From Alphaproteobacteria bacterium (GTDB lineage: Bacteria; Pseudomonadota; Alphaproteobacteria; UBA6615): 64,000 nt of DNA. The translations under genes were made by a program, and so were the position numbers. Positions 240 to 26,006 of the stretch are shown one piece after another. The notes beneath the pieces are model-generated. The model was given only the letters and a program-made list of their open reading frames with translations. It was not told the DNA's origin and searched no databases. The first letter of the stretch is position 1. The number at the start of each line of letters is the position of its first letter. Location: NCBI GenBank assembly GCA_002727315.1, contig PBWR01000011.1:1-64000 (forward strand), read 5' to 3'.

Positions 240-398
240 CTTGGATCGATCCTTCGTCGGCTGCGCGCAATCGTATCACGCGCCGTCGGCCAGGTTTAGA
301 GGTCGCGGGCAGGCTCGCCAACGGTTCGCGGGCACGATATTCTAGGGTGTTGGGACCGCGCGTTTCGGGCGCGGGTATTGGGAGGCGTGATTTCGGAC

Positions 399-1802
399 AT
401 GGCAATCAACTTTGTCCTGAACGGTGAGACACGCTCGGAGGAAACGGTTTCGCCGACGCGCACCGTGCTTGAGTATCTGCGCGAGGATGCGCGCCTGACC
501 GGGACCAAGGAGGGCTGCGCGGAAGGTGACTGCGGCGCGTGTACCGTCGTCATGGTGCGCAACGGGACCGATGAAACGGTGGCGGTGAATTCCTGCCTGC
601 TGACCATGGGCCAGCTGGATGGCGCCGATCTCGTTACCGTCGAGGGACTGTCGGAAGAAGATGGAACGCTTGAAGCGGTCCAGCAGGCCGTCGTCGATGA
701 AGACGGCACCCAGTGCGGGTTCTGCACGCCGGGTTTCGTGATGGCGCTGCACGCTCTGCGCCGAAGCGACGAAACGGTAACAGAAGACGTCATTCACGAT
801 GCGTTGGCCGGAAACCTCTGTCGGTGCACGGGGTATCGCTCGATCGTTGCGGCGGCGCGCGCCGCTTGCGCCCAACCGGTTGGCGACGATGCGTTGGATG
901 TTTCGGACATCACGGCCAGTGAACACGTGTCGGTGGATGACCAGCTGTTCCTGGCGCCGGCAAACCTCGCAGATCTGGTTGCCAGCCGCGTGGCGCATCC
1001 CGACGCGCCGCTGCTATCGGGTGGAACCGATCTGGGGCTGCGGTTCAGCAAGGAACGCGAGAGCTACCCGGTCGTGATTTTCACCCAGAATGTGGCCGAG
1101 CTGAAACAGGTCGCGGAAGATGATGCGGCGCTCACTATCGGGGCGGCGGTGACCTACACCGAGGTGCTGGCCCGGATCGAAGATCTGTACCCGTCCTTCG
1201 CCACGCTGATCCACCGGATCGGATCGCGGCAAATCAGGAATGTGGGCACCATCGGCGGCAATATCGGAAATGCGTCTCCTATCGGGGACACGCCGCCGTG
1301 TCTGATTGCGCTCGATGCGACGCTCGTCCTTCACGGGTCGAAGGGTGGACGTGAAATCCCGCTCGAATCCTACTTCCTGGACTACCGCAAGACGGATCTG
1401 GCCGGGTACGAAGTGATTGCGTCGGTGCGGGTCCCCAAGCTCACCGACGGTCAGGTCTTCCGCTCCTACAAGATTTCCAAGCGTTACGATCAAGACATCT
1501 CGGCCGTTGTCGGCGCATTCCGCCTAACCATCGAAGACGGTGTCGTGACCGACGCGCGGATCGCGTTCGGCGGGATGGCCGCCATCCCCAAACGCGCTGC
1601 GGCATGTGAAGCGGCATTGGTCGGCCAGACCTGGTCGGAGGAGGCCGCGCGCCAGGCCGGTGCGGCGGTAGGCGAGGATTTTGCGCCGATCGACGATCAT
1701 CGCGCGAGCGCCGACTACCGGTTGCGGGTCGCGTCCAATCTGTTCGTGCGCCTGTATCGTGATCTCGACGGCGCCAGCGATGTAGAGGTGATGGCGCTAT
1801 GA
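399..1802 (+). CDS. xdhA: Xanthine dehydrogenase small subunit (2Fe-2S/FAD)
   Basis: CAEGDCGACTVV and CGFCTPGFVMAL...NLCRCTGYRSI iron-sulfur motifs followed by FAD domain; likely start ATG 399 within ORF 378..1802. Confidence 0.93.
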   Translation: MAINFVLNGETRSEETVSPTRTVLEYLREDARLTGTKEGCAEGDCGACTVVMVRNGTDETVAVNSCLLTMGQLDGADLVTVEGLSEEDGTLEAVQQAVVDEDGTQCGFCTPGFVMALHALRRSDETVTEDVIHDALAGNLCRCTGYRSIVAAARAACAQPVGDDALDVSDITASEHVSVDDQLFLAPANLADLVASRVAHPDAPLLSGGTDLGLRFSKERESYPVVIFTQNVAELKQVAEDDAALTIGAAVTYTEVLARIEDLYPSFATLIHRIGSRQIRNVGTIGGNIGNASPIGDTPPCLIALDATLVLHGSKGGREIPLESYFLDYRKTDLAGYEVIASVRVPKLTDGQVFRSYKISKRYDQDISAVVGAFRLTIEDGVVTDARIAFGGMAAIPKRAAACEAALVGQTWSEEAARQAGAAVGEDFAPIDDHRASADYRLRVASNLFVRLYRDLDGASDVEVMAL

Positions 1803-4117
1803 GCACGGATACGGATATTCGCGGCGCGGTTCACACCAATGTCCGCCACGATAGCGGCCACGGCCATGTCACCGGCAAGGCTCGCTATATCGACGATATG
1901 CCCGTGCTGCCGGGTACGGTTGAGATCGTCCTGGTCACGAGCCCCCATGCGCATGCGGCGATCAAGTCGATCGATGTGGCGGCCGCACTTGCCGCCGACG
2001 GGGTGCGCGGTGTGCTGACCGCAGACGATATTCCCGGACACAATGACATCGGGCCCATCTTCGAAGGTGAGCCGGTGCTGGCGGCGGGGGTTGCCGATTA
2101 TGCCGGCGCGCCGATTGTCGCGGTGGCAGCCGACAGTTTTGATCAGGCATTCGCGGCCGCCGGGCAGGTCGAGATCGAGTACGAAGTGCTGCCGGCGGTG
2201 CTCGAGATCGAGGACGCGCTCGAGCAGGAGCTCTACACCTATCCACCCCAGATCATGACCTATGGTGACCCCGACAGCGCTCTCGACGGGGCGGCACGCC
2301 GGATCAAGGGCGAGCTGCGCTGCGGCGGTCAAGATCACTTCTATCTTGAGAGCAACATCGCCCTGGCCGTGCCGCGCGACGATGGCGATCTCGACGTCCA
2401 CAGCTCCACCCAGCATCCCAGCGAGGTGCAGCACGGTGTCGCCCACGTCCTCGGCATGCCGACGAACGCCATCACCGTCGAGGTGCGGCGCATGGGCGGC
2501 GGGTTTGGCGGCAAGGAGAGCCAGCCCACCATTATAGCCGCGATCGCCGGCCTGGTGGCCAATCACACGGGCCTGCCGGCTAAGCTGCGCCTGCGCCGCG
2601 ACGACGACATGATCGTGACGGGCAAGCGGCACGATTTCCTGTTTCGCTATGACGTCGGGTTCGATGATGACGGCCGTATCTCCGGTGTCGATATCCTGAT
2701 GGGCATGCGCTCGGGCAATGTCGCGGATCTGAGCCCCGGCGTGCTCGCCCGTGCGCTGTGCCATGCCGACAACTGCTACTACCTGCCGAATGCTCGGTTG
2801 AGCGGTTATCCGTGCAAGACGAACACCGTATCCAATACGGCGTTTCGTGGCTTCGGCGGCCCCCAGGGCATGATCGTGATCGAGGCGATCCTGGAACATA
2901 TCGCCCGGGAAAACGGACAGACGTTGGACCATGTGCGGGCGGTCAACTACTACGGCACCGAGGACCGCAACGTGACGCCGTATGAGCAGACGGTAAAAGA
3001 CAACATCATCGTTCCGCTGGTCGAGCGCCTGCAGTCCGAGGTCGATTTCGATGGCATGTCCAGGGCCGCGGATGAATTCAACGCATCCCATGAGACCCTG
3101 AAGAAGGGCGTGGCGCTGATGCCGGTGAAGTTCGGCATTTCGTTCAACACGCCGAAGCTCAACCAGGCCGGGGCGCTCGTCCATGTCTATGCCGATGGCA
3201 GCGTTCATCTCAACCACGGCGGTACGGAGATGGGACAGGGGCTCTTCACCAAGGTTGCCCAGGTCGTGGCCTCGGTGTTTCAGATCGATCTCGACAACAT
3301 CAAGATTTCCGCTACCCGCACCGACAAAGTTCCCAACACATCGGCGACCGCGGCTTCGTCCGGTTCCGATCTGAACGGCATGGCGGCCTTCAATGCCGCC
3401 ACCGCGATCAAGGGCCGGATGGCACAGGTCGCCGCCGATCATTTCGACACGGATGTCGACGCAATCGAATTCCGCCAGAACCGGGTCTATGCCGGCAATG
3501 AAAGTCTGTCGTTTTCCGAACTGGCCGAAGAAACCTACAACCAGCGCGTTCAGCTGTCCGAGGCCGGCTTCTATTCCACCCCGGGCCTGCACTGGAATGC
3601 CAAGAAGCTCGTTGGCAATCCGTTTTACTATTTCACCTACGGCGCCGCGATCGCGGAGGTTCTGATCGACACGCTGACCGGCGAGAGTCGGGTGCTGCGC
3701 GCCGATATCCTGCAGGACTGCGGCAGTTCCCTGAACCCGGCGATCGACATTGGGCAGATCGAAGGCGCCTTCGTGCAGGGGCAGGGTTGGCTGACGTCGG
3801 AAGAGCTGGTCTGGAATGACCGGGGACAACTCCTGACCCACGGGCCGTCGACCTACAAGATACCCGGCAGTCGGGATGTGCCCCCGGTGTTCAATGTTCA
3901 CCTGTTGGAAGATGCGCCCAACCGGGTCCCGACCGTGTTCCACTCCAAGGCCGTGGGAGAACCGCCACTGATGCTGGCGATTTCGGTCTGGCTGGCGATC
4001 CGCGATGCGGTCTCGCGTATTGGTGACAACCGGCTGGTGCCGAAATTAGATGCGCCGGCGACCCCGGAAGCAATCCTGGCCGCGGTCGAGGATATTCAGG
4101 CGCGGAGCGGGGCCTGA
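1799..4117 (+). CDS. xdhB: Xanthine dehydrogenase molybdopterin-binding subunit
   Basis: 772 aa; GKARYIDD, RRMGGGFGGKE, TAFRGFGGPQG, GGTEMGQGL motifs; 4-nt overlap with xdhA. Confidence 0.95.
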   Translation: MSTDTDIRGAVHTNVRHDSGHGHVTGKARYIDDMPVLPGTVEIVLVTSPHAHAAIKSIDVAAALAADGVRGVLTADDIPGHNDIGPIFEGEPVLAAGVADYAGAPIVAVAADSFDQAFAAAGQVEIEYEVLPAVLEIEDALEQELYTYPPQIMTYGDPDSALDGAARRIKGELRCGGQDHFYLESNIALAVPRDDGDLDVHSSTQHPSEVQHGVAHVLGMPTNAITVEVRRMGGGFGGKESQPTIIAAIAGLVANHTGLPAKLRLRRDDDMIVTGKRHDFLFRYDVGFDDDGRISGVDILMGMRSGNVADLSPGVLARALCHADNCYYLPNARLSGYPCKTNTVSNTAFRGFGGPQGMIVIEAILEHIARENGQTLDHVRAVNYYGTEDRNVTPYEQTVKDNIIVPLVERLQSEVDFDGMSRAADEFNASHETLKKGVALMPVKFGISFNTPKLNQAGALVHVYADGSVHLNHGGTEMGQGLFTKVAQVVASVFQIDLDNIKISATRTDKVPNTSATAASSGSDLNGMAAFNAATAIKGRMAQVAADHFDTDVDAIEFRQNRVYAGNESLSFSELAEETYNQRVQLSEAGFYSTPGLHWNAKKLVGNPFYYFTYGAAIAEVLIDTLTGESRVLRADILQDCGSSLNPAIDIGQIEGAFVQGQGWLTSEELVWNDRGQLLTHGPSTYKIPGSRDVPPVFNVHLLEDAPNRVPTVFHSKAVGEPPLMLAISVWLAIRDAVSRIGDNRLVPKLDAPATPEAILAAVEDIQARSGA

Positions 4118-12407: not shown

Positions 12408-13646
12408 TCAGTAGGGCGTGGCCTCGACCTGGCCCAGGGAATTGATCAGCACGGATTCGCTCGGTGCGGGCTTGTCGTTGACCCGGTCCAGGCACCAGTC
12501 GGCCAGCATCGTGTACCAGTTTTCCCCCAGATAGGCTGCCGATCCGCCGCCGATCGCGTGGCGCTCGCCTTCGTACATGACGAGCTTCTTCGGCACCGAA
12601 AGCTTGTTCACGAAGTCCTCGGAACATTCAATCGGACTGAGCTCCTCGTCCTGTCCGGCCTGGACGAGGATGGGACATTTAATCTGGTCGACGATCGGGT
12701 CGAGTGAGAACTCGCTGATGAAGTTGTCGAACTCGGCCTCGTCGTCATAGTCGGCCATGAACATGAACCGGAGCTTGAAGGTCGGCGCAGCCATGTTGAA
12801 GATCGTGTAGCAGCCCGGTTCGTGACACACGAAGGACAGGGCTGCCCCTTTCACCTTGTCTCCCAGCTGGGCGGCGGCCTGTGCACCGAAGAACGATCCG
12901 AAGCTGATCCCGAAGATGACCAGGCGGTCTTTGTCGATATTCGGGTGCTGGATCAGCCAGTCGTAGACGGCCTGGGCCGCCTCCATATGATTGTCCTTGG
13001 TGACATAAACGCCGTTGACCGGGCATTCACCCTGGCCGGGCCCGTCATAGACGAAACTCGCCATGCCGCGTTCGAGCATCTTGTCGCCGTACATGGAGCA
13101 CATGATCTCCTTCGATCCGTCCATGCCGTCGATCCCGATGGCGCAGGGGAACTTCTCGCCATCCTTCGGTTCGTGGGGCAGTGCCAGGAAACCCGGCAGG
13201 ACACCATCGCCAAAGGGGATTTCGACGCGTTCGATCGGGCGCGGCGCAAACTCGATATACTTGTCGTAGCAATCGACCATGCGCTGGTTGTAGTCCTTGT
13301 GCAGATCGTTGGCCTCGAAGATCGGCCAGCGAGCGGCCGAATAGAGCAGTGACGCGATGAAGTAGCTCTCGCGGGCGGACACCAGACGATCCTCGGCCTC
13401 GAAGGCCTTTGCCTTGATTTCGCGCCGCCGGGCCGCGCCGGCAAACTCGCGGTGCATGTCTGCGAACTTCTTGGTGCGCATGCCCACCGTGCGGAAATCA
13501 CCAACGGCGTCGGGCCCACACGGAAACATGGTGTAGCCAAGCCGCGGCTGATCCCACTCCATCCCGACAGACGAGATGATTGCATCTAGGATCCAGCGCT
13601 GTTCGGCAAAGCGCTTCATTTTCTGTTCGGTGAAAGCCCGCATCAT
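12408..13646 (-). CDS. Alpha/beta hydrolase similar to 2,6-dihydroxypseudooxynicotine hydrolase/FrsA-like C-C hydrolases
   Basis: N-terminal helical cap region, AIGIDGMDGSKE, FVYDGPGQGE, IFGISFGSFF nucleophile elbow. Confidence 0.8.
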   Translation of the reverse strand: MMRAFTEQKMKRFAEQRWILDAIISSVGMEWDQPRLGYTMFPCGPDAVGDFRTVGMRTKKFADMHREFAGAARRREIKAKAFEAEDRLVSARESYFIASLLYSAARWPIFEANDLHKDYNQRMVDCYDKYIEFAPRPIERVEIPFGDGVLPGFLALPHEPKDGEKFPCAIGIDGMDGSKEIMCSMYGDKMLERGMASFVYDGPGQGECPVNGVYVTKDNHMEAAQAVYDWLIQHPNIDKDRLVIFGISFGSFFGAQAAAQLGDKVKGAALSFVCHEPGCYTIFNMAAPTFKLRFMFMADYDDEAEFDNFISEFSLDPIVDQIKCPILVQAGQDEELSPIECSEDFVNKLSVPKKLVMYEGERHAIGGGSAAYLGENWYTMLADWCLDRVNDKPAPSESVLINSLGQVEATPY

Positions 13647-13737: not shown

Positions 13738-14322
13738 TTATTGGCGAAAGCGTTGCATCAATAATCCGGACATGGCGTCGGCTGACGGCCTGCAAGCATT
13801 GTTGGGCACCCCGAGATTCTGTCCGACAGCGAAACCATCGAACGCCATGAAGGCGATATGCGCGAGGCTGCGGATATCGCCTTGTTCGTGCTCGGGTATC
13901 TCGAGTGCTTCACCGAGAATCTCCGCAAGCCGCTCTTCACACCATCCGAGCAGTTCCCGGCTGTATCCGTCGCTTTCGGATGTGGTGGACAGTGCCTGCA
14001 TCATGTTGTTCGCGAACCCGTTTCGCTCGGCAGGAAGTTCGCACCACAGGAAACGGAAGATCATCCGCACGCGCTCCTCGACTTCGGGTATCGAGTGCGC
14101 ATCGGCTTCCAGGGCATCGAAACGCTGGAGGAGCCATGGGTTGGAGATGGCCCAAAGAATTTCGAGCTTGGAGGAAAAGTAGACATAGATGTTTGATTTC
14201 GAGACACCCGATGCCGCCGCGATGGCCGCCATTGTCGTGCCGACATATCCGTTGTCGGCGAAAAGACTTTCTGCGCCCTTCAGAATGTGATCGCGGACTT
14301 CTTGTTTCTTAACCTGGGCCAT
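13738..14322 (-). CDS. TetR/AcrR family transcriptional regulator
   Basis: HILKGAESLFADNGYVGTTMAAIAAASGVSKSNIYVYFSSKLEIL HTH. Confidence 0.93.
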   Translation of the reverse strand: MAQVKKQEVRDHILKGAESLFADNGYVGTTMAAIAAASGVSKSNIYVYFSSKLEILWAISNPWLLQRFDALEADAHSIPEVEERVRMIFRFLWCELPAERNGFANNMMQALSTTSESDGYSRELLGWCEERLAEILGEALEIPEHEQGDIRSLAHIAFMAFDGFAVGQNLGVPNNACRPSADAMSGLLMQRFRQ

Positions 14323-14414
14323 AAAACCGAACTATATTCGTTATTGACTTGCCGACCATATCGACTAGCATTACCGCCTACAAACGAAATCCGACATGAT
14401 CGGGAGTGAAGAGC

Positions 14415-15497
14415 ATGCGAATTCCAGGCGGGATGCGATTTCAGGAGACCAATCCGGGCAAGCTGACAGGCTTGTTCATGAAACAGTTCCTTATGTCCAG
14501 GGTGACGAAAGGGGAGACCATGGTCCTTCTGTCGGACCTGACGTCGCGTCCGGAATATGTCCAGGCTGGTTTTGCGGCCGCCGAGGAACTCGGGGCTGAT
14601 GCCTACGAGATGCGGGTCAACATGGTGCCGTCGTGGACAAAGGTCGGTGTCGATACGATTGGCAAAACCAATGGCCTGATGGACGCGATGAAGGCGGCCG
14701 ATATTGTCGTGGCGCTTCATATTCCGTTGTTCACGAGCTGGCTGCGCGAGGTGATGGCAACCGGCACCCGGTTCCTGATGATCATCGATGCCCCGGACGA
14801 CCTGGAGACGCTGCTCGCACCCAAGGGCCTGAAGGAGGCGGTAAAGTACGCAGAGAGCCGCTACCAACAGACCAAGGAAGTGCGCGTCCTGAGCGATGCC
14901 GGCACGGACCTGACCTATTCATGCGGCGAGTATCCGGTGATGAGCCAGTGGGGCTACGCCGACGAACCGGGACATTTCGACCAATGGGGTGTTGGCCACA
15001 TCCATACCTTCCCGAACGAAGGCTCAGCCAACGGCACGGTTGTGATGGCGCCAGGCGATATCATTATTCTGCCCTACTGCCGGTACGTGCATGACGAGGT
15101 TCGGCTCGAGATTCGCGACGGGTTTATCCGGAAGGTCGAGGGAGGCCTCGATGCCAAGCTCATGCAGGACTGGCTCGATGACAACAAGGTCGCGGATGAC
15201 GATCTCGATCCGTATGCGGTATCGCATCTGGGCTGGGGGCTGAACCCGCAGGCCCGCTGGTACAACATCGCGCTCAACGGTGACGATCCGGAGCGTTCGC
15301 ACGCGGCCGCGCGGGTCTTCCCGGGCAATTTCCTGTTCTCGACGGGCCCCAACACCCAGGGTGGTGGAAGCCGCAACACGAAGGGACACTGCGATGTGCC
15401 GATGCGCGATTGCACCGTCATCCTCGACAATGAGGTGGTGATCGAGCGGGGTAAGTTCGTCGACGAGAAGATGATCGTCGAGCGGGAGATGCGCTGA
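14415..15497 (+). CDS. 2,5-dihydroxypyridine 5,6-dioxygenase-like protein (NicX family)
   Basis: Full-length similarity by pattern to NicX/M29-like dioxygenases: LSDLTSRPEYVQAGFAAAEELGADAYEMRV, SHLGWGLNPQARW, NTKGHCDVPMRDCTVILDN (H...HxD metal ligands). Confidence 0.82.
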   Translation: MRIPGGMRFQETNPGKLTGLFMKQFLMSRVTKGETMVLLSDLTSRPEYVQAGFAAAEELGADAYEMRVNMVPSWTKVGVDTIGKTNGLMDAMKAADIVVALHIPLFTSWLREVMATGTRFLMIIDAPDDLETLLAPKGLKEAVKYAESRYQQTKEVRVLSDAGTDLTYSCGEYPVMSQWGYADEPGHFDQWGVGHIHTFPNEGSANGTVVMAPGDIIILPYCRYVHDEVRLEIRDGFIRKVEGGLDAKLMQDWLDDNKVADDDLDPYAVSHLGWGLNPQARWYNIALNGDDPERSHAAARVFPGNFLFSTGPNTQGGGSRNTKGHCDVPMRDCTVILDNEVVIERGKFVDEKMIVEREMR

Positions 15498-16333
15498 TGG
15501 CCCTGCGCGACCTTGCAGCATATCCGAAACAGGAGCCGTTCTCCGAGATCGGCGCAAAATATCACGTCCGTGTGCAGGAGCTGGGCGCCGGAGTAACCGG
15601 ACAGTCCTTTGCGTATGGTGACGATCCGTACCAGCAAGTTGCGGTGTTTCCGGCAGCCGAGCCAAACGCGACCGTGGTTGCATTCATGCATGGCGGCGGC
15701 TGGACCAACGGCTACAAGGAGTGGATGGCGTTCATGGCGCCACCGCTGACCGCGGCAGGTATTACCTTCGTCAGTATCGGCTACAGGTTGGCGCCCAGTG
15801 TCAGCTGGCCGACGGGCATTCAGGATGCGGCCCGGGCCGTGCAGTGGATACACGCCAACATTGCCGAGCATGGCGGCGACCCGGACCGGATTGTCATTGG
15901 CGGCCATTCGGCAGGTGGTCACTATGCTGCCTGGCTGGCGGTACGGTCAGATTGGCAAAGCCCGCTGGGCCTGCCGGACGATGTGATCAAGGGCGCATTG
16001 CCCGTGTCCGGGGTGTTCGACTTCACTGAGGGCAACGGAATGCCCATGCGACCCCGGTTTCTGGGCGAAGATCCCGACAACGACCGGGATGCCAGCCCGA
16101 TTCACACGATTTCCCGCACCCCGCCATTCTACCTCTCCTGGGGTGATGCGGACTTTCCCCATCTCATCACCCAGGCCGAACAGATGGCGCGAGCGTTGTA
16201 TAATGCCGGTGGCGACGTCGAAACCCTGGTTTTGGCGGGCTGCGACCATCTGGGCGCGTCCTACGCCTGCGGCGAGAACGGGGGTGTGTGGATCAGTGGT
16301 TTAACCAGCTGGCTGAACAACCACTTTAGATAG
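15497..16333 (+). CDS. Alpha/beta hydrolase, arylformamidase (kynurenine formamidase)-like
   Basis: MHGGGWTNGYKEW, SIGYRLAP, IGGHSAGGHYAAWLA; start codon overlaps the NicX-like stop (TGATG). Confidence 0.85.
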   Translation: MALRDLAAYPKQEPFSEIGAKYHVRVQELGAGVTGQSFAYGDDPYQQVAVFPAAEPNATVVAFMHGGGWTNGYKEWMAFMAPPLTAAGITFVSIGYRLAPSVSWPTGIQDAARAVQWIHANIAEHGGDPDRIVIGGHSAGGHYAAWLAVRSDWQSPLGLPDDVIKGALPVSGVFDFTEGNGMPMRPRFLGEDPDNDRDASPIHTISRTPPFYLSWGDADFPHLITQAEQMARALYNAGGDVETLVLAGCDHLGASYACGENGGVWISGLTSWLNNHFR

Positions 16334-16492: not shown

Positions 16493-17110
16493 GCGAGCGG
16501 TGCAGGAATGGACGGCCTCGAAGCCACGCGCCGCATTCGCAAACTTGAAGACCCCGATCAGTCGAACATCTACATCATCGCGATGACGGCGAATGCACTG
16601 ATCGGAGATCGGGAGACGTGTATTTCAGTGGGAATGAACGACTAACTTCCGAAGCCGATCGACCAGAACAAACTGCTCGCGGCGCTGGCAAAGGCGGGCG
16701 CTGTCGCGCCGACGGTCGCAGAAGACGAGGCCGATATCGTTGAAGACGGTGGGCCGGAATGTTTGGACCGCATGGTTCTCGACCAGCTCGAGGAGACGAT
16801 CGGACAGGAAGCCCTCAACGGTATGCTGGCAATGACAGTCGCCGAGGCGCCGGCGACAGTGGCGCTGATTTCGGCCGTCAACGCGGACGGTGATCTGGAA
16901 ATGATGCGGCGCGAAGTGCATGACATGAGAAGCAATTTCGGAAGCTACGGTGCCATGCGGCTGTGCGAACATGCGCGAGCCATCGAAAAAGCCTGCCGTA
17001 AGGACAATGCCCGCGAGGCATCCGAACTGGCCGACAGGCTGCCGTAGATCGTGGATCAGACCCTCGACCTTCTTAAACAACGCCTGCCAGAACTCAAGAT
17101 CGCCAGCTAA
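16493..17110 (+). pseudogene. Degraded receiver (REC) - Hpt phosphorelay protein remnant
   Basis: Single frame reads ...[64 protein letters not shown]...HDMRSNFGSYGAMRLCEHARAIEKACRKDNAREASELADRLP*IVDQTLDLLKQRLPELKIAS*; stops at 16643-16645 and 17045-17047; N-terminal receiver half absent. Confidence 0.8.
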
Positions 17111-17890: not shown

Positions 17891-18928
17891 ATGAAAGCGC
17901 AAGTTCTGCACAAGGCGGGTGAACCGTTCTCGTACGAAGATGTTCCCGACCCGAAGCCGGGCCCCGGTGAGGCCGTTGCACGTGTGCTGGCTTGCGGTTC
18001 GGGCCTGACGATCCACCATGTGCGCGCGGGGCGTGCGGCGGCGGAATTCCCGATCATTATCGGACACGAAATCACCGGCGAGATCGTCGAGGTGGGATCC
18101 GGTGGTGAGACCGGCGGCCTGCAAGTCGGCGATCCAGTGACATCCTACTTCTATCTGACCGACGGCGAGGACAAGTGGACCCGGCTTGGCCACGATCCCG
18201 TTTCAGCCCACAACGCGGGCTATATCGGCCGACAGATGGATGGCGGCTACGCGGAATACATCAAGCTGCCGGTCCGCAACTTCATCAAGTTGCCCGAGGC
18301 GCTCGACTGGAAGGGCAAGCCGGCCGATGTGGGCGTGATCACGGATGCGATCGCCACGCCGTACAAGGTGTTGACGCGCGCGCGCGTCACTCCGACCGAC
18401 ACCGTTGCGGTGTTCGGTGCCGGCGGCGGGTTGGGCGTGCATCAGGTCATGATGGCGAAATGGGCTCACGCCCGCGTCATCGCCGTCGACGTGATGGCCG
18501 ATAAGCTCAAGGTTTGCCAGGACCTGGGTGCGGACATGGTCGTCGACGCTTCGAACGACCGCGTCGTTGAGGAGATTATGGATTTGACCGATGGGGCCGG
18601 GGTCGATGTGGCGGTCGATTATGTCTCGACCCAGTCAACCCAGGAGCAGGCAGTCGGAAGCCTCGGGGTCCATGGGCGGTTCGTCACGCTCGGCGGCGCC
18701 TGCCAGCCCTTCATGGCGCCGGCGCCCCACATGCTGGCCAAGGAGCTTGAACTGCTGGGCAGCCGCTATTGCACGCGCCAACAAGTCGTTGAATCGCTTG
18801 AGTTGTGCGCACGCGGCGAGGTCTGGCCTTTGGTGACCGAGACCTACAAGCTGGAAGACGCCGAGACCGCACACACCCGGCTCGACCAGGGGCTGGTCAC
18901 CGGGCGCGCCGCACTCGTCATGGACTAG
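17891..18928 (+). CDS. Zinc-type alcohol dehydrogenase (MDR) family
   Basis: GHEITGEIVEVG, VAVFGAGGGLGVHQVMMAKWAHARVIAVD Rossmann motif. Confidence 0.9.
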   Translation: MKAQVLHKAGEPFSYEDVPDPKPGPGEAVARVLACGSGLTIHHVRAGRAAAEFPIIIGHEITGEIVEVGSGGETGGLQVGDPVTSYFYLTDGEDKWTRLGHDPVSAHNAGYIGRQMDGGYAEYIKLPVRNFIKLPEALDWKGKPADVGVITDAIATPYKVLTRARVTPTDTVAVFGAGGGLGVHQVMMAKWAHARVIAVDVMADKLKVCQDLGADMVVDASNDRVVEEIMDLTDGAGVDVAVDYVSTQSTQEQAVGSLGVHGRFVTLGGACQPFMAPAPHMLAKELELLGSRYCTRQQVVESLELCARGEVWPLVTETYKLEDAETAHTRLDQGLVTGRAALVMD

Positions 18929-19803
18929 CCGACCTCGACCGGGTTCGTCAGCACACCGACGTTCGAGACCTCGACCTCGATCGTGTCACCGGCCTTCATC
19001 CACAGTGGTGGGGTCCGGCCAAGGCCGGCACCGCTCGGCGTGCCGGTGGCGATCACGTCGCCGGGCACAAGTTCGGTGAATTTCGAAATATAGGCAATCA
19101 ACTCAGGGATCGAGAAGATCAGGTCGTTGATGCCCGTATGCTGAACGACCTCGCCGTTCAGGCGGGTCTCCAGGGTGAGGGCGGCCGGGTCGGGAATTTC
19201 ATCGTCGGTGACCATGCACGGTCCGAATGCGCCGGACTGGTAGAAGTTCTTACCCGGCATGTACTGGGATGAGTGACGCTGATAGTCGCGCAGCGTGGCG
19301 TCGTTGTAGATGGAGTAACCGCCCACATAGCTCAACGCATCGGCCTCCGACACGCGCCGCGCCGGTTTCCCGATGATCGCGGCCAGTTCGCCTTCATAGT
19401 CGAACATTTCGGATTCGGCTGGCGCCAGGATCGGATGTTTGTGGGGCACATGGCTGTTTGCCCAGCGGGCAAACAATGTCGGGTGATCGGGTAACTCGAT
19501 TCCAGCTTCCTTGGCGTGCTCGCGATAGTTCCAGCCGACACAGATAATCTTTGCCGGGTCGCGGATCGGTTCCAGCAACGTGATGCCGCTGGCCGGAAAA
19601 TCCGAAGCCTTGCCCGAATTGTCGCCGAAACCGGTACCCAAATATTCTGCCACCTTTGCCTTGGCCGTATCGTCAGCGGCCAGATAGTCGCGCAAGGTCG
19701 GAATCGATGTGCCGAATTCGGCACCGAGATCGATGATGCCGCCATCGGGTGCGTAGGTGCCCCAGGATTCGCGATTGACCACTTTAAAACTGATGAGTTT
19801 CAC
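18925..19803 (-). CDS. Fumarylacetoacetate hydrolase (FAH) family protein
   Basis: ICVGWNYREHAKEAG, DYEGELAAIIGK, GYSIYNDATLRDYQ, PGDVIATGTPSGAG. Confidence 0.93.
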   Translation of the reverse strand: MKLISFKVVNRESWGTYAPDGGIIDLGAEFGTSIPTLRDYLAADDTAKAKVAEYLGTGFGDNSGKASDFPASGITLLEPIRDPAKIICVGWNYREHAKEAGIELPDHPTLFARWANSHVPHKHPILAPAESEMFDYEGELAAIIGKPARRVSEADALSYVGGYSIYNDATLRDYQRHSSQYMPGKNFYQSGAFGPCMVTDDEIPDPAALTLETRLNGEVVQHTGINDLIFSIPELIAYISKFTELVPGDVIATGTPSGAGLGRTPPLWMKAGDTIEVEVSNVGVLTNPVEVG

Positions 19804-19834
19804 AATTACCCCCGGTTGGATTCGTTATGATTGA

Positions 19835-20992
19835 TCAGCCGTTTGCGGCATCGCGCAGCATGTTCCGCGCAATGACGATCTGCTGGATCTGTGATGTTCC
19901 TTCGTAGATGCGCAGTAACCGGACGTCACGGTAGAAACGCTCGATGGGATATTCGGCCATGTAGCCGGCACCGCCGAAAATTTGAACCGCGCGATCGGCC
20001 ACTCGGCCGACCATTTCGGTGCAATAGAGTTTGCAGCATGCCGCCTCGATGGCGATGTTCTCACCACCGTCGAACCGACGCGCGGCGTCTAGGACCATGG
20101 TGCGACCGGCATAGGCTTCTGTCCGGCTGTCGGCGAGCATGGCCTGGATCAGCTGAAATTCGCCGATGGGCTTCCCGAACTGCTGCCGTTCGCTGGCGTA
20201 GCGTACGCTTTCGTCGATCAATCTTTCCGCCATGCCGGTTGCGATGGCGCCCATGTGAATCCGACCGCGGTCGAGCACCTTCATGGCCGTCTTGAAGCCC
20301 TGTCCCTCCACGCCGCCGATCAGGTTCTCGGCCGGAACGCGACAATCCTCGAAAATCACGTCGGCGGTATGGGCACCCTGCTGGCCCATCTTCTTGTCCG
20401 GCGTCCCGACCGACAGCCCCGGAGAATCACGCTCAACAATGAAGGCGGAAACGCCACGCGCGCCGGGCGTCTCCGGGTCGGTACGCGCCATGACCGTGAA
20501 AATGCCGGCATGGGGTGCATTTGTGATGTAGCGCTTCGAGCCGTTGAGCACATAGTGATCTCCGTCGCGGATCGCCGTTGTCCGCAACGAGCCGGCGTCG
20601 GAACCCGCCTCGGGTTCGGTCAGCGCGAAAGAGGCAATGATCTCGCCGCTCGCAAGCCGGGGTAGCCATGATTGTTTTTGCTCGTCCGTGCCGTCGATGA
20701 CGATACCTTGGGAGCCGATCCCCACATTGGTGCCAAACACCGAACGGAAGGCCGGCGACGTCCAGCCCAGTTCGAGAACGGCGAGGACCTCCTCGGTCAT
20801 GGACAGGCCGATCCCGCCATATTCTTCGGGAATGGAAAGGCCAAAGAATCCGAGCTCGCGCATTTCCGCGATCACGTCTGCCGGGACTGCGTCATTTGCG
20901 GACACCTCGGCCTCAAGCGGGACCAGCCGGTCGCGCACTAAGCGACGGATCGTGTCGAGGAGTTGTTCCAGTGTGTCGGAATCCAGTGCCAT
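19835..20992 (-). CDS. Acyl-CoA dehydrogenase
   Basis: FALTEPEAGSD, QIFGGAGYMAEYPIERFYRDVRLLRIYEGTSQIQQIVIARNML. Confidence 0.95.
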   Translation of the reverse strand: MALDSDTLEQLLDTIRRLVRDRLVPLEAEVSANDAVPADVIAEMRELGFFGLSIPEEYGGIGLSMTEEVLAVLELGWTSPAFRSVFGTNVGIGSQGIVIDGTDEQKQSWLPRLASGEIIASFALTEPEAGSDAGSLRTTAIRDGDHYVLNGSKRYITNAPHAGIFTVMARTDPETPGARGVSAFIVERDSPGLSVGTPDKKMGQQGAHTADVIFEDCRVPAENLIGGVEGQGFKTAMKVLDRGRIHMGAIATGMAERLIDESVRYASERQQFGKPIGEFQLIQAMLADSRTEAYAGRTMVLDAARRFDGGENIAIEAACCKLYCTEMVGRVADRAVQIFGGAGYMAEYPIERFYRDVRLLRIYEGTSQIQQIVIARNMLRDAANG

Positions 20993-21122
20993 AGCGAGCC
21001 GGTTATATCCGGATCGCCCCCTTGGTTCCATGCAGGAATGGATTATCTACTGATCAGCCCAAACCTGTGAAACCGGCGTGTGTCTGCTATTCTGCGCGCC
21101 AGTTCGATCCGCCAGAGGAGGG

Positions 21123-21689
21123 ATGCCGATGTCCGAAGCGTTTGCACATGTGCCGGAACCCAACAATGTGCCTAGTCCGGCCTATTTGGCGCATATCGTG
21201 CTCTACACGAAGCAGCGCGCAACGATGACCGACTGGTATTGCAAGGTGCTGGGCGCACAGGTCATGGGCGATTCCGAGGGGATTTCGTTCTTGACGTTTG
21301 ACGACGAACATCACCGGGTGGCGATCATCGAGCGTGACGGTATTGGCGACAAAGTGCCCGATACGGTCGGGTTGGCACATTTTGCCTATTCCTATTCCTC
21401 GCTGACGGACTTGGTGACCGTTTTCGAGCGGCTCAACGACTTCGATATCGCCCCCTATCGGCAGATCAATCACGGTCCGACGACGTCGCTCTATTATCGC
21501 GATCCGGACGGAAACGCCGTTGAGCTGCAGACCGACAATTTCGAGTCCATCGCCGCGCTCAACGAGTGGTTCGCGACCGGGGCCTTCGACCGGGAACCGA
21601 TCGGTGTGGAGATCGATATGAAAGAGGTCGCCGCCAAGCTTCACGCCGGCGTGCCGGAAAGCGAACTGAAGAAACCTTTGCAGACATGA
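21123..21689 (+). CDS. VOC-family (glyoxalase/extradiol ring-cleavage dioxygenase-like) protein
   Basis: LAHIVLYTKQRATMTDWYCKVLGA, GLAHFAYSY, LYYRDPDGNAVELQTDN; single VOC module with H...H...E pattern. Confidence 0.85.
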   Translation: MPMSEAFAHVPEPNNVPSPAYLAHIVLYTKQRATMTDWYCKVLGAQVMGDSEGISFLTFDDEHHRVAIIERDGIGDKVPDTVGLAHFAYSYSSLTDLVTVFERLNDFDIAPYRQINHGPTTSLYYRDPDGNAVELQTDNFESIAALNEWFATGAFDREPIGVEIDMKEVAAKLHAGVPESELKKPLQT

Positions 21690-21725
21690 ACCGCGCCCGA
21701 ACCGGGCACGGGAAAGGAAGATTCG

Positions 21726-22736
21726 ATGGGAATGTTGGTCGACGGATCGTGGATCGAGAACGATGCCACGGCGCGCGAAGTCGCCAAGGACGGCAAGTTC
21801 GAGCGCAAGGAAAGCCAGTTTCGCAGCTGGGTGACGGCGGATGGCAGTGCGGGCCCGTCCGGTGAGGGCGGTTTCCAGGCCGAGCCGGGGCGCTATCACC
21901 TCTACCTCGCACACACCTGTCCCTGGGCGCATCGGGCGCTGATTTTCCGGACGATCAAGGGGCTGGACAGTGCGATCTCGGTCTCACTAGCGCAGCCGGG
22001 ACGGCATGATCAGGGCTGGACCTACGCCGACAATCCCGACAATCCCGACTGCGTGCCAGACCATGTAAATGGGTTCGAGCATCTGCATCAGGCCTATTCG
22101 GCATCGAAGGCCGACTACACCGGCAAGGTCACGGTTCCGACCCTTTGGGACAAGCAGACCGGCCAGGTGGTGAACAATGAATCGTCGGAAATCATCCGGA
22201 TGTTCAATACGGCCTTCGAGGCGTTCACCAACGCCACCGAAGACTACTACCCGGAAGACCTCCGGGCCGAGATCGATGAGATCAATGAAATCGTCTATCA
22301 CACCCTGAACAACGGCGTGTATCGCGCCGGTTTCGCTTCGTCCCAGGAAGCCTACGAAGAAGCCGTGATCGCGCTGTTCGACACCCTCGACAATCTCGAG
22401 GAACGCCTTGGCCGCCAGCGCTATCTCGTCGGCGACCGGCTGACCGAAGCCGACTGGCGCCTGTGGGTCACGCTGATCCGATTCGACGCGTGCTATGTCG
22501 GTGCGTTCAAGTGCAACATCCGGCGCATCGCGGACTATCCGAACCTGCTGAACTACACCCGCGAGCTCTACCAGATCCCCAGAATCGCCGAGACCTTCAG
22601 TTTCGATTTCGCAAAAAAGAACTATTACGGCATCGAGCGGATCAATCCGAACGGGATCGTGCCGATCGGGCCGGAAGATCCCGTGGCTGTCTACAGGGCG
22701 CCGCACGACCGCGAGCGGTTTCCGGCCGAGAGTTGA
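21726..22736 (+). CDS. Glutathionyl-hydroquinone reductase (Xi-class GST)
   Basis: RYHLYLAHTCPWAHRALIFRTIKGL, VPTLWDKQTGQVVNNESSEIIRMFN, LVGDRLTEADWRLWVTLIRFD. Confidence 0.93.
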   Translation: MGMLVDGSWIENDATAREVAKDGKFERKESQFRSWVTADGSAGPSGEGGFQAEPGRYHLYLAHTCPWAHRALIFRTIKGLDSAISVSLAQPGRHDQGWTYADNPDNPDCVPDHVNGFEHLHQAYSASKADYTGKVTVPTLWDKQTGQVVNNESSEIIRMFNTAFEAFTNATEDYYPEDLRAEIDEINEIVYHTLNNGVYRAGFASSQEAYEEAVIALFDTLDNLEERLGRQRYLVGDRLTEADWRLWVTLIRFDACYVGAFKCNIRRIADYPNLLNYTRELYQIPRIAETFSFDFAKKNYYGIERINPNGIVPIGPEDPVAVYRAPHDRERFPAES

Positions 22737-22751
22737 GAGAGCGGGGGTATC

Positions 22752-23144
22752 ATGATCGACAAGGAACTTTACAAAACCGGCGAACGTATCCGCCGCGAAG
22801 TGATGGGGGACGCACGTGTCGATGCTTCGATGGCCAACCTCGATGATTTCAACCGCGATTTCATGGAGCAGTTCATCACTGAGCTGGGCTGGGGTTCGGT
22901 GTGGGGACGCGACGGCCTGACCCGAAAGCAGCGCAGCCTGTTGAACTTGGGCATGCTTGCCGCACTGGGCCGGATGCACGAGTTCGAAGGCCATGTGCGT
23001 GGTGCGATCAACAACGGCCTCACGCGCGAAGAGGTTCGCGAGGCGCTTTTGCAGGTCACCATGTATTGCGGAGCGCCGGCCGGTATGGAGGCGTTCCGTT
23101 CCGCGACCAAGGTTTTGAAAGAGATGGATGATGAGGCGGGCTGA
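22752..23144 (+). CDS. Carboxymuconolactone decarboxylase family protein
   Basis: DGLTRKQRSLLNLGMLAALGRMHEFEGHVRGAINNGLTREEVREALLQVTMYCGAPAGMEAF. Confidence 0.93.
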   Translation: MIDKELYKTGERIRREVMGDARVDASMANLDDFNRDFMEQFITELGWGSVWGRDGLTRKQRSLLNLGMLAALGRMHEFEGHVRGAINNGLTREEVREALLQVTMYCGAPAGMEAFRSATKVLKEMDDEAG

Positions 23145-23254
23145 CCCCCGTCGCCTAGCTGTCCCTTCTACGGTCTCCTTCCAAGGCCTGATTTCGTCAA
23201 TCCCTGAAACACGCTACAACCGGTTTCACAACCGTTGCATGCGAGGGAAGAGAC

Positions 23255-24205
23255 ATGGCGAAGGCGTTTGCGAGTGCGGCCGATCTGGCACCGAAGAAGA
23301 TCACGTTCGAAAAGCTCGACAAGGGCGTCTACGCCTACACTGCAGAGGGGGATCCCAACTCCTGCGTGATCGTGGGCGACGACGGTGTCCTGGTCTTGGA
23401 CGCGCAGGCAACCCCCGTTATGGCGAAACGGGTGGTGAAGGAAATCCGCAAGGTCACGAAGAAACCCATCAAGTATGTACTGCTCAGCCATTACCACGCG
23501 GTCCGGACCCTGGGTGCGAGCGGTTTCGGTGCAGCCGAAATCGTGATGAGCGAGGCGACACGAGATCTCGTGGCCGAGCGGGGAATGCAGGACTACAAGT
23601 CGGAGGCCGATAGGTTCCCCCGCCTGTTCGAGGCAATCGAGACGGTTCCGGGGTTAACCTGGCCGACGCTGACCTTCGAGAATGAGATGACTTTGTGGAT
23701 GGGTGACCGCGAGGTCCGGATCATTCACGCCGGACGCGGACACACCAAGGGCGACACGATCGTGTGGTTGCCGAAAGAGCGTATCCTGTTCGCCGGCGAT
23801 CTGGTGGAGGCCCATGCCGCGCTTTACTGCGGCGATGCCTATCTCACCGATTGGCCGGGTACGCTGAAGAAACTTCGCGCCCTCAAACCGCGTAAACTCG
23901 TACCCGGTCGCGGCCCTGCGGCGACCACGCCGCGGCAATGCGAAAAGGCCTTCGATCAGACAGAGGGGTTTGTCCGCGACCTGCTCCGGGGTGCCAGGCA
24001 TGGCGTGAAACGTGGATGGTCACTCAAGGAAACCTTCGACCACACCTACAAGAAGATGACGCCGAAATACGGCGACTGGGCCATCTACGAGCACTGCATT
24101 CCGTTCAATGTCGGCCGCGCCTATGACGAAGCAGGCGGCCTCGAGCATCCGCGGGTCTGGACGGCCCGGCGCGACAAGATCCTCTGGAAGGAATTGCAGG
24201 CCTGA
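23255..24205 (+). CDS. MBL-fold metallo-hydrolase-like protein with altered metal motif
   Basis: MBL fold order (DDGVLVLDAQ, SHYHAVRTLGAS, GRGHTKGD, LFAGDLVE, VPGRGPA); HxHxDH replaced by HYHAVR. Confidence 0.88.
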   Translation: MAKAFASAADLAPKKITFEKLDKGVYAYTAEGDPNSCVIVGDDGVLVLDAQATPVMAKRVVKEIRKVTKKPIKYVLLSHYHAVRTLGASGFGAAEIVMSEATRDLVAERGMQDYKSEADRFPRLFEAIETVPGLTWPTLTFENEMTLWMGDREVRIIHAGRGHTKGDTIVWLPKERILFAGDLVEAHAALYCGDAYLTDWPGTLKKLRALKPRKLVPGRGPAATTPRQCEKAFDQTEGFVRDLLRGARHGVKRGWSLKETFDHTYKKMTPKYGDWAIYEHCIPFNVGRAYDEAGGLEHPRVWTARRDKILWKELQA

Positions 24206-24209
24206 CGGA

Positions 24210-24413
24210 TCAGCTTCGGTCCGCAGCCTTGGCTGCGGCAATCGCCTGATCCAGGATTGCGCGTTCGCCGACGTGGTTGGCGAGAAGCAGGATGAGCCGG
24301 GCGTTCAGGCGCATGCTTTCGTCTTCGCTCAAACCGGCATGGGCTTCGATCAACGCCTCGTAGAAATCGTCGGGCGCATCTATTCCAAGGCGGGTACGCA
24401 GTTCGCCGGTCAT
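24210..24413 (-). CDS. DUF2783-like small protein
   Basis: 67 aa, DAPDDFYEALIEAHAGLSEDESMRLNARLILLLANHVGERAILDQAIAAAK; adjacent to FAD monooxygenase. Confidence 0.75.
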   Translation of the reverse strand: MTGELRTRLGIDAPDDFYEALIEAHAGLSEDESMRLNARLILLLANHVGERAILDQAIAAAKAADRS

Positions 24414-24437
24414 TCTGATCTCCCAGTCATGTTGTCG

Positions 24438-26006
24438 TCACAGTCGGGCACAGGCGCGGTTCCAGGCCTCCGTGACGGCATCGGCATTGAAGTGACGCCA
24501 CCGCGCCGCCACATGCTGATCGGGGCGGAACAGGTAACAGGTCCCGGGTCGGGCGTCGTAGCGATCGGAGGCCAGGCCGGTGGCATCGATCAGGACCAAA
24601 TTTAGGCCGTCAATTGAAGGTGCATCGGTGCCGAAATGAACAAGGGTGAAAGCGTTGTCCGCGAGATGATCGATCAACCAGTCGCCGGCGTTGCTTTGCA
24701 GCGGAGCATCGATGGCCGGTGCGCCCGGTGGCGGGCCGTCCTTGAACGTGTCGGCGTCGGGTGTGTTCAATGGCGAATCGCTGTAACGGGCAGGGACGGA
24801 CAAGCGCCCGCTATTGACCAGCCGGCGCGCGAACTCGTGGTCACGCGCCAGGTCGAGAACGGCATCGCGAAACGCGCCGCTGACTTTTGATTTCGGTGTC
24901 ATGAAATCTGTGCTGCGTGTCGAGTTGAGCAGGTTCTCGTCCGTTGCCGGAATGCGTTCGGCGTCATAACTGTCCAGCAGGCGCTCGGGGGCATCGCCCC
25001 GGATGACCGATGCCAGTTTCCAGGCCAGATTGTCGGTGTCCTGCAGTCCGCTGTTTCCGCCGCGTGCGCCGAAGGGGGACACGACATGGGCGCTGTCGCC
25101 GGCAAAAAACACACAGCCATGCCGTAACCTGGCCAAACGCCGGCAGGTGAAGGTGTAGACCGATGTCCAGACGATCTCGAAATCACCGTGCCCGAGCATG
25201 CGTTCGATACGCGGGATCACGCGCTCAGCCTTGCGTTCTTCGTCGGGGTCGGCATCCCAGCCGAGCTGGAAGTCTATGCGCCAGACATCGTCGGCCTGCT
25301 TGTGCATCAGGGTCGATTGTCCGTCGAAGAATGTCGGTGAGAACCAGAACCGCCGGATGGCGGGAAAATCCTCCTTCATCCTAATATCGGCAATCAGGAA
25401 CCGGTCCTGGAAGACGCGGCCTTCGAAATCCAGACCCAGGCTTTCGCGTGTCTGGCTGCGCACGCCGTCACACGCAATTAGCCAGTCACCTTCGAGCGTA
25501 TAGGGGCCATCCGGCGTGTCGACCTGGATTTCCACATGGTCATCGAATGACCGGACATCGCGGGCCGAATGCTGCCAGCGCAGGTCGATGGCCGCCAGTT
25601 CCGTGGCGCGCGCCACCATCTGCTGCTCGAAAAAGAACTGCTGCAGATTGATGAACGCCGGACGCTTGTGGTCTGGCTCGGGCAGCAGGTTGAAGCTGTA
25701 GATCAGCTCGTCGCCGACAAAAATCTCGCCTTCGTTCCACGTCACGCCCTTTTCGACAAGTGCGTCGCCCGTGCCCAGGCGGTCACAAATCTCCAGGCTT
25801 CGCTTGGCCCAGCAAATCGCCCGGCTGCCTTCGCTTACATCGCTGCGGGAATCGATCACCACGCAGGAAATGTCATGCAGCGCGAGATCGACGGCGGCGG
25901 CCAGTCCAACGGGGCCGGCGCCGAGAACAATAACGGGATGTCGCGTGGTCTGGCCGTCGAGCTCAGGGCTGCGGCGAAACACGAATGTCGGCTGTGATTG
26001 CGACAT
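24438..26006 (-). CDS. FAD-dependent aromatic monooxygenase (MhpA/PheA-type)
   Basis: VLGAGPVGLAAAVDLALHDISCVVID (GxGxxG), FFAGDSAHVVSPFGARGGNSGLQDTDNLAWKLA. Confidence 0.93.
   Translation of the reverse strand: MSQSQPTFVFRRSPELDGQTTRHPVIVLGAGPVGLAAAVDLALHDISCVVIDSRSDVSEGSRAICWAKRSLEICDRLGTGDALVEKGVTWNEGEIFVGDELIYSFNLLPEPDHKRPAFINLQQFFFEQQMVARATELAAIDLRWQHSARDVRSFDDHVEIQVDTPDGPYTLEGDWLIACDGVRSQTRESLGLDFEGRVFQDRFLIADIRMKEDFPAIRRFWFSPTFFDGQSTLMHKQADDVWRIDFQLGWDADPDEERKAERVIPRIERMLGHGDFEIVWTSVYTFTCRRLARLRHGCVFFAGDSAHVVSPFGARGGNSGLQDTDNLAWKLASVIRGDAPERLLDSYDAERIPATDENLLNSTRSTDFMTPKSKVSGAFRDAVLDLARDHEFARRLVNSGRLSVPARYSDSPLNTPDADTFKDGPPPGAPAIDAPLQSNAGDWLIDHLADNAFTLVHFGTDAPSIDGLNLVLIDATGLASDRYDARPGTCYLFRPDQHVAARWRHFNADAVTEAWNRACARL

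Follow-up and report, generated by a model that had tools for sequence, protein, structure and literature searches.

The closest known counterpart of the enzyme considered here is NicX of P. putida KT2440, which is reported to act on 2,5-dihydroxypyridine only and whose Fe(II) ligands (His265, Ser302, His318 and Asp320) and Arg293 are known from earlier work (PMC7910607). Two further residues, Glu177 and His189, bind the pyridine N1 and O1 of the substrate, and mutating them cuts the activity to 2.7% (E177A) or 6.9% (H189A), the two mutations together abolishing it (PMC7910607). No other member of this group with a solved structure was found in the analysis. The N-formylmaleamate deformylase, NicD or NdpF, is an alpha/beta hydrolase whose gene lies beside that of the NicX-type (or NdpE-type) dioxygenase. 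Another solution is offered by the 4-hydroxypyridine pathway of Arthrobacter IN13, in which KpiB, an alpha/beta hydrolase other than NicD, is the proposed deformylase after ring cleavage (PMC7356986); its partner dioxygenase KpiC belongs to the amidohydrolase superfamily.

The locus described here lies in a contig from a marine alphaproteobacterium; a stretch of 64,000 nucleotides was analysed (hereafter, the window). The sequence-only reading had proposed that a NicX-like dioxygenase and a formamidase-like hydrolase form a translationally coupled pair cleaving a pyridine ring. Both open reading frames are found where that reading placed them, next to a divergent TetR gene as it also had it (Table 1), and they share one base, such that the hydrolase start lies inside the dioxygenase stop (TGATG). 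The ATG of the dioxygenase is preceded by a good ribosome-binding site, an alternative GTG start at 14406 being possible. The reading of both genes is far above chance, since related genomes carry orthologues in the same order with identities of 77-86% for the dioxygenase and 61-74% for the hydrolase.

Table 1. Features of the dioxygenase-hydrolase locus in the window
Feature	Position	Strand	Evidence
FrsA-like alpha/beta hydrolase	12408..13646	-	Pfam FrsA-like; PDB matches 6e-13 to 2e-11
TetR-family regulator, divergent	13738..14322	-	Pfam TetR_N 9.5e-15; similar TetR at other loci
Candidate TetR operator GAACTATATTC (GAA-N5-TTC)	14329..14339	.	inverted repeat common to divergent-TetR relatives
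NicX-like non-heme Fe(II) dioxygenase, 360 aa	14415..15497	+	phmmer, AlphaFold2 model, Fe ligands
Serine alpha/beta hydrolase (Abhydrolase_3/BD-FAE), 278 aa, candidate deformylase	15497..16333	+	Pfam, triad, fold search, co-occurrence

No model in Pfam or NCBIfam matches the dioxygenase, which nevertheless matches NicX (7cn3) in length and is similar to it throughout (phmmer 2.7e-66 over 335 residues, 36-37% identity). An AlphaFold2 model built from 31 homologues (pLDDT 91.5) superimposes on the NicX crystal structure with a TM score of 0.90-0.93 and an rmsd of 1.9 A. The HxD motif recognised earlier aligns with His318-x-Asp320 of NicX, and all four Fe ligands are kept in every homologue examined, as is Arg293 with the single exception of Thioclava L054. 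The suggested NicX-like layout is thereby confirmed, and fold and metal site identify the protein as a NicX-fold Fe(II) enzyme of the extradiol type. It might be supposed that this is instead a peptidase of the M29 type, or a protein that has lost dioxygenase activity, because relatives are often annotated as leucyl aminopeptidase or peptidase M29 and the two folds are distantly related. Yet the TM score to the M29 aminopeptidases PepS, AmpT and AmpS is about 0.6 compared with 0.90 to NicX, a difference that rules out aminopeptidase identity and goes against the M29 clustering named beforehand as a refuting outcome for the proposal; with the iron ligands intact as well, we regard this alternative in either form as very improbable.

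The substrate pocket and the phylogeny give a different picture. The window protein has Gln at both 177 and 189, in place of the Glu and His that bind dihydroxypyridine in NicX. Gln177 is fixed across its clade apart from a Paraburkholderia-like offshoot with Tyr, position 189 alternates within the family between Gln, as in the subclade of the window, and His, as in many relatives, and Glu308 of NicX is mostly Gln as well; the change of His105 to Phe is uninformative because members of the canonical clade carry Phe too. Glu177, for its part, is shared by every row of the characterised clade but one, L054, which sits on a long branch. In a tree of 80 rows, in which the deeper joins are uncertain owing to long branches, the window protein falls on a long stem into a separate clade of 39 rows (support 100/100), distinct from the dihydroxypyridine clade holding NicX and NdpE (98/91). 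On this point the sequence-only reading is supported in part: the protein is no M29 aminopeptidase, but it stands outside the characterised NicX/NdpE clade. A third clade of NicX-related proteins, some annotated as peptidase M29, lies apart from that of the window; at two of its loci (L059, L062) the gene adjoins acyl-CoA-dehydrogenase-like, alpha/beta hydrolase, TetR and glutamine-synthetase-like genes.

The genetic surroundings also depart from the nic pattern. NicC, NicD, NicE and NicF are absent from loci of the window type, whereas Nic-type loci carry combinations of these genes instead. A search of the window's own genome, which is 87% complete, recovered no orthologue of NicD or NicE: the nearest matches to NicD are generic hydrolases (25-31% identity, best E 9e-9), NicE finds only a weak racemase-like match, and a NicF-like isochorismatase (41%) lies on another contig. 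Assignment of the enzyme as a genuine 2,5-dihydroxypyridine 5,6-dioxygenase, with the hydrolase deformylating N-formylmaleamate as a non-orthologous replacement of NicD, would accord with its identity to NicX, with the shared fold and metal site and with the retention of His189 in many relatives. Moreover, Rhodococcus L051 also has Gln177 at a locus with NicE- and NicF-like genes, so that Gln177 alone cannot fix a different substrate. Against it stand the separate clade on its long stem, the double Gln at positions where mutation of NicX is so costly, the lack of a NicE orthologue in the genome and of nic genes at the loci. We consider it unlikely, and the dihydroxypyridine or nicotinate-derived substrate suggested earlier is not borne out.

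The partner hydrolase conforms to the Abhydrolase_3/BD-FAE type, with an HGGGW oxyanion motif, a GxSxG nucleophile and the Asp and His of a complete triad (Ser138-Asp219-His251) that is invariant among orthologues. The HGGGW and GHSAGGH motifs, rightly singled out in the sequence-only reading, vary little or not at all among 16 orthologues. Equally sound was the view that this is not a classical NicD: NicD-type proteins belong to Abhydrolase_6/1 and do not align with the hydrolase, and the different Pfam families together with a non-significant BLASTP value (E 0.08) rule out orthology. What is common to the two is the alpha/beta hydrolase fold and a gene beside that of a NicX-type enzyme. KpiB, an alpha/beta hydrolase proposed to act after pyridine ring cleavage, provides a further parallel by description, its partner KpiC being unlike the NicX-like enzyme of the window.

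Searches with a structure model of the hydrolase (pLDDT 90.9) return many esterases in a tie with kynurenine formamidase (4e15 and relatives), showing no clear preference, and it is therefore from context that deformylation is proposed. The Drosophila kynurenine formamidase (4e11/4e14/4e15) is of the same family type, with a TM score of 0.72-0.75, but has only 18-20% identity and ranks among many esterases. Alternatively, the ring might be cleaved while the hydrolase, working before or after that step, is an esterase or lactonase that attacks an ester, a lactone or an acyl side chain. The top structural and sequence matches are indeed feruloyl and carboxyl esterases, two more alpha/beta hydrolases are encoded nearby, and paralogues of 44-47% identity stand alone elsewhere in the genomes (the neighbours of a stand-alone paralogue gave no clue to function). 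Such a role accounts less readily for tight pairing, in three arrangements, with an enzyme of the NicX type, known for yielding an N-formyl amide; we rate it as a little less likely even than the dihydroxypyridine assignment, and regard the hydrolase as plausibly a deformylase by analogy with the nic pathway.

This pairing is a persistent trait. Of 95 genomes, 21 hold the NicX-like clade, and these 21 and no others hold the hydrolase (at a cut-off of at least 50% identity); one dioxygenase is truncated by the end of a contig. Because these genomes are akin to one another, the 21 do not count as independent events. The overlap, or a spacing of 0-2 bases, persists in about 16 members of the family, while in a second arrangement hydroxylase genes separate the two and in a third they lie about 0.6-1.2 kb apart (0.6 kb in L050, 1.2 kb in L025). 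The intervening genes, found in a sister clade (L011-L015, L017, L020, L027, L093, L094), are in most loci coxG (not seen at L093) and the FAD, 2Fe-2S and Mo subunits of a xanthine-oxidase-type hydroxylase. The position of this hydroxylase between the two genes makes an N-heterocycle pathway likely. Nicotinate dehydrogenase, quinoline 2-oxidoreductase and 6-hydroxypseudooxynicotine dehydrogenase are among the relatives of its Mo subunit, but the top PDB match, 4-hydroxybenzoyl-CoA reductase, speaks against such a pathway. In gammaproteobacterial MAGs a molybdenum hydroxylase is encoded after the dioxygenase gene, with a PhzS/NicC-like FAD monooxygenase upstream in three (directly so in two); no such partner hydrolase is found near the gene in the gammaproteobacterial members L018, L021 and L023. 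It also counts against the pathway that no molybdenum hydroxylase adjoins the pair in the window. The large subunit has nine matches in the window's own genome and up to 21 in relatives (about 9-21 per genome). The FrsA-like gene, a remote relative of 2,6-dihydroxypseudooxynicotine hydrolase (2jbw) and Ayg1 with orthologues of 87-97%, is linked in most of the window's family but not throughout it; some genomes having the pair lack it, which rules it out as an obligatory partner.

Taken together, we favour, with modest confidence, the view that the two proteins perform consecutive steps of aerobic N-heterocycle breakdown, ring cleavage followed by deformylation, on a substrate probably other than 2,5-dihydroxypyridine. 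The ring-cleavage proposal is supported by the NicX fold, the non-NicD hydrolase, the conserved pairing and the molybdenum hydroxylase of the sister clade, and loses its nicotinate-derived substrate. The dioxygenase would open a hydroxylated pyridine-like ring, made in the sister clades by the molybdenum hydroxylase, cleaving next to the ring nitrogen to give, by the chemistry of NicX, an N-formyl amide from which the hydrolase, in the place of NicD, would remove the formyl group. The substrate is probably a ring related to 2,5-dihydroxypyridine, with Gln rather than Glu177 recognising its nitrogen or oxygen side. One could speculate, though we think it doubtful, that it is an N-alkylated pyridone derived from a marine betaine, homarine or trigonelline for example, and degraded by an undescribed ring-cleavage route set in marine and sponge-associated proteobacteria. 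An N-alkylated ring nitrogen has no hydrogen for Glu177, which would fit the change to Gln, and the tertiary N-formyl product would call for some other hydrolase in place of NicD. In one clade a PhzS-like monooxygenase, a relative of an enzyme whose substrate is an N-methyl heterocyclic carboxylate, is encoded upstream of the NicX-like gene; our search of the literature on homarine and trigonelline degradation found no paper with matching genes. A large clade with the same iron site, a changed pocket and ties to a different hydrolase, occurring in marine genomes that abound in molybdenum hydroxylases, is a sign of N-ring breakdown so far unrecognised, and its two small proteins are open to direct testing.

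The unit would be controlled by a TetR repressor binding GAA-N5-TTC. A TetR protein of 40-59% similarity adjoins the NicX-like gene at other loci, and the repeat precedes the dioxygenase gene in the window and at seven further loci that likewise have a divergent TetR gene alongside (four lineages in all), against a chance expectation of 0.06 per 240 bp, for a motif picked after the sequences had been seen and hence termed a candidate operator. Two further divergent-TetR loci have a degenerate form, and at loci lacking TetR the repeat is absent upstream of the NicX-like gene. In the window it lies just upstream of a promoter-like TTGACT-N16-TAGCAT at 14344-14371.

Several minor observations concern the wider window and its relatives. 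Downstream of the pair, 16508-17098 preserves in decayed form (67% identity, interrupted by two in-frame stops) the C-terminal part of a hybrid sensor kinase; at the same place in L024 (12044-17245) this kinase is an intact ORF of 1733 aa. At 378-4117 there is an xdhA/xdhB-type molybdenum hydroxylase pair. In one genome of the same family, two NicX-like genes with 50-52% identity to that of the window lie close together (L092, 7559-13674), and the cluster of L017, on a contig labelled Verrucomicrobiales, is nearly identical to that of the alphaproteobacterial L014, probably through a binning error. Finally, a conserved block at 17894-26006, encoding ADH, an FAH-family hydrolase, acyl-CoA dehydrogenase, VOC, GST, CMD and MBL proteins and a FAD monooxygenase, possibly serves further ring-compound catabolism.
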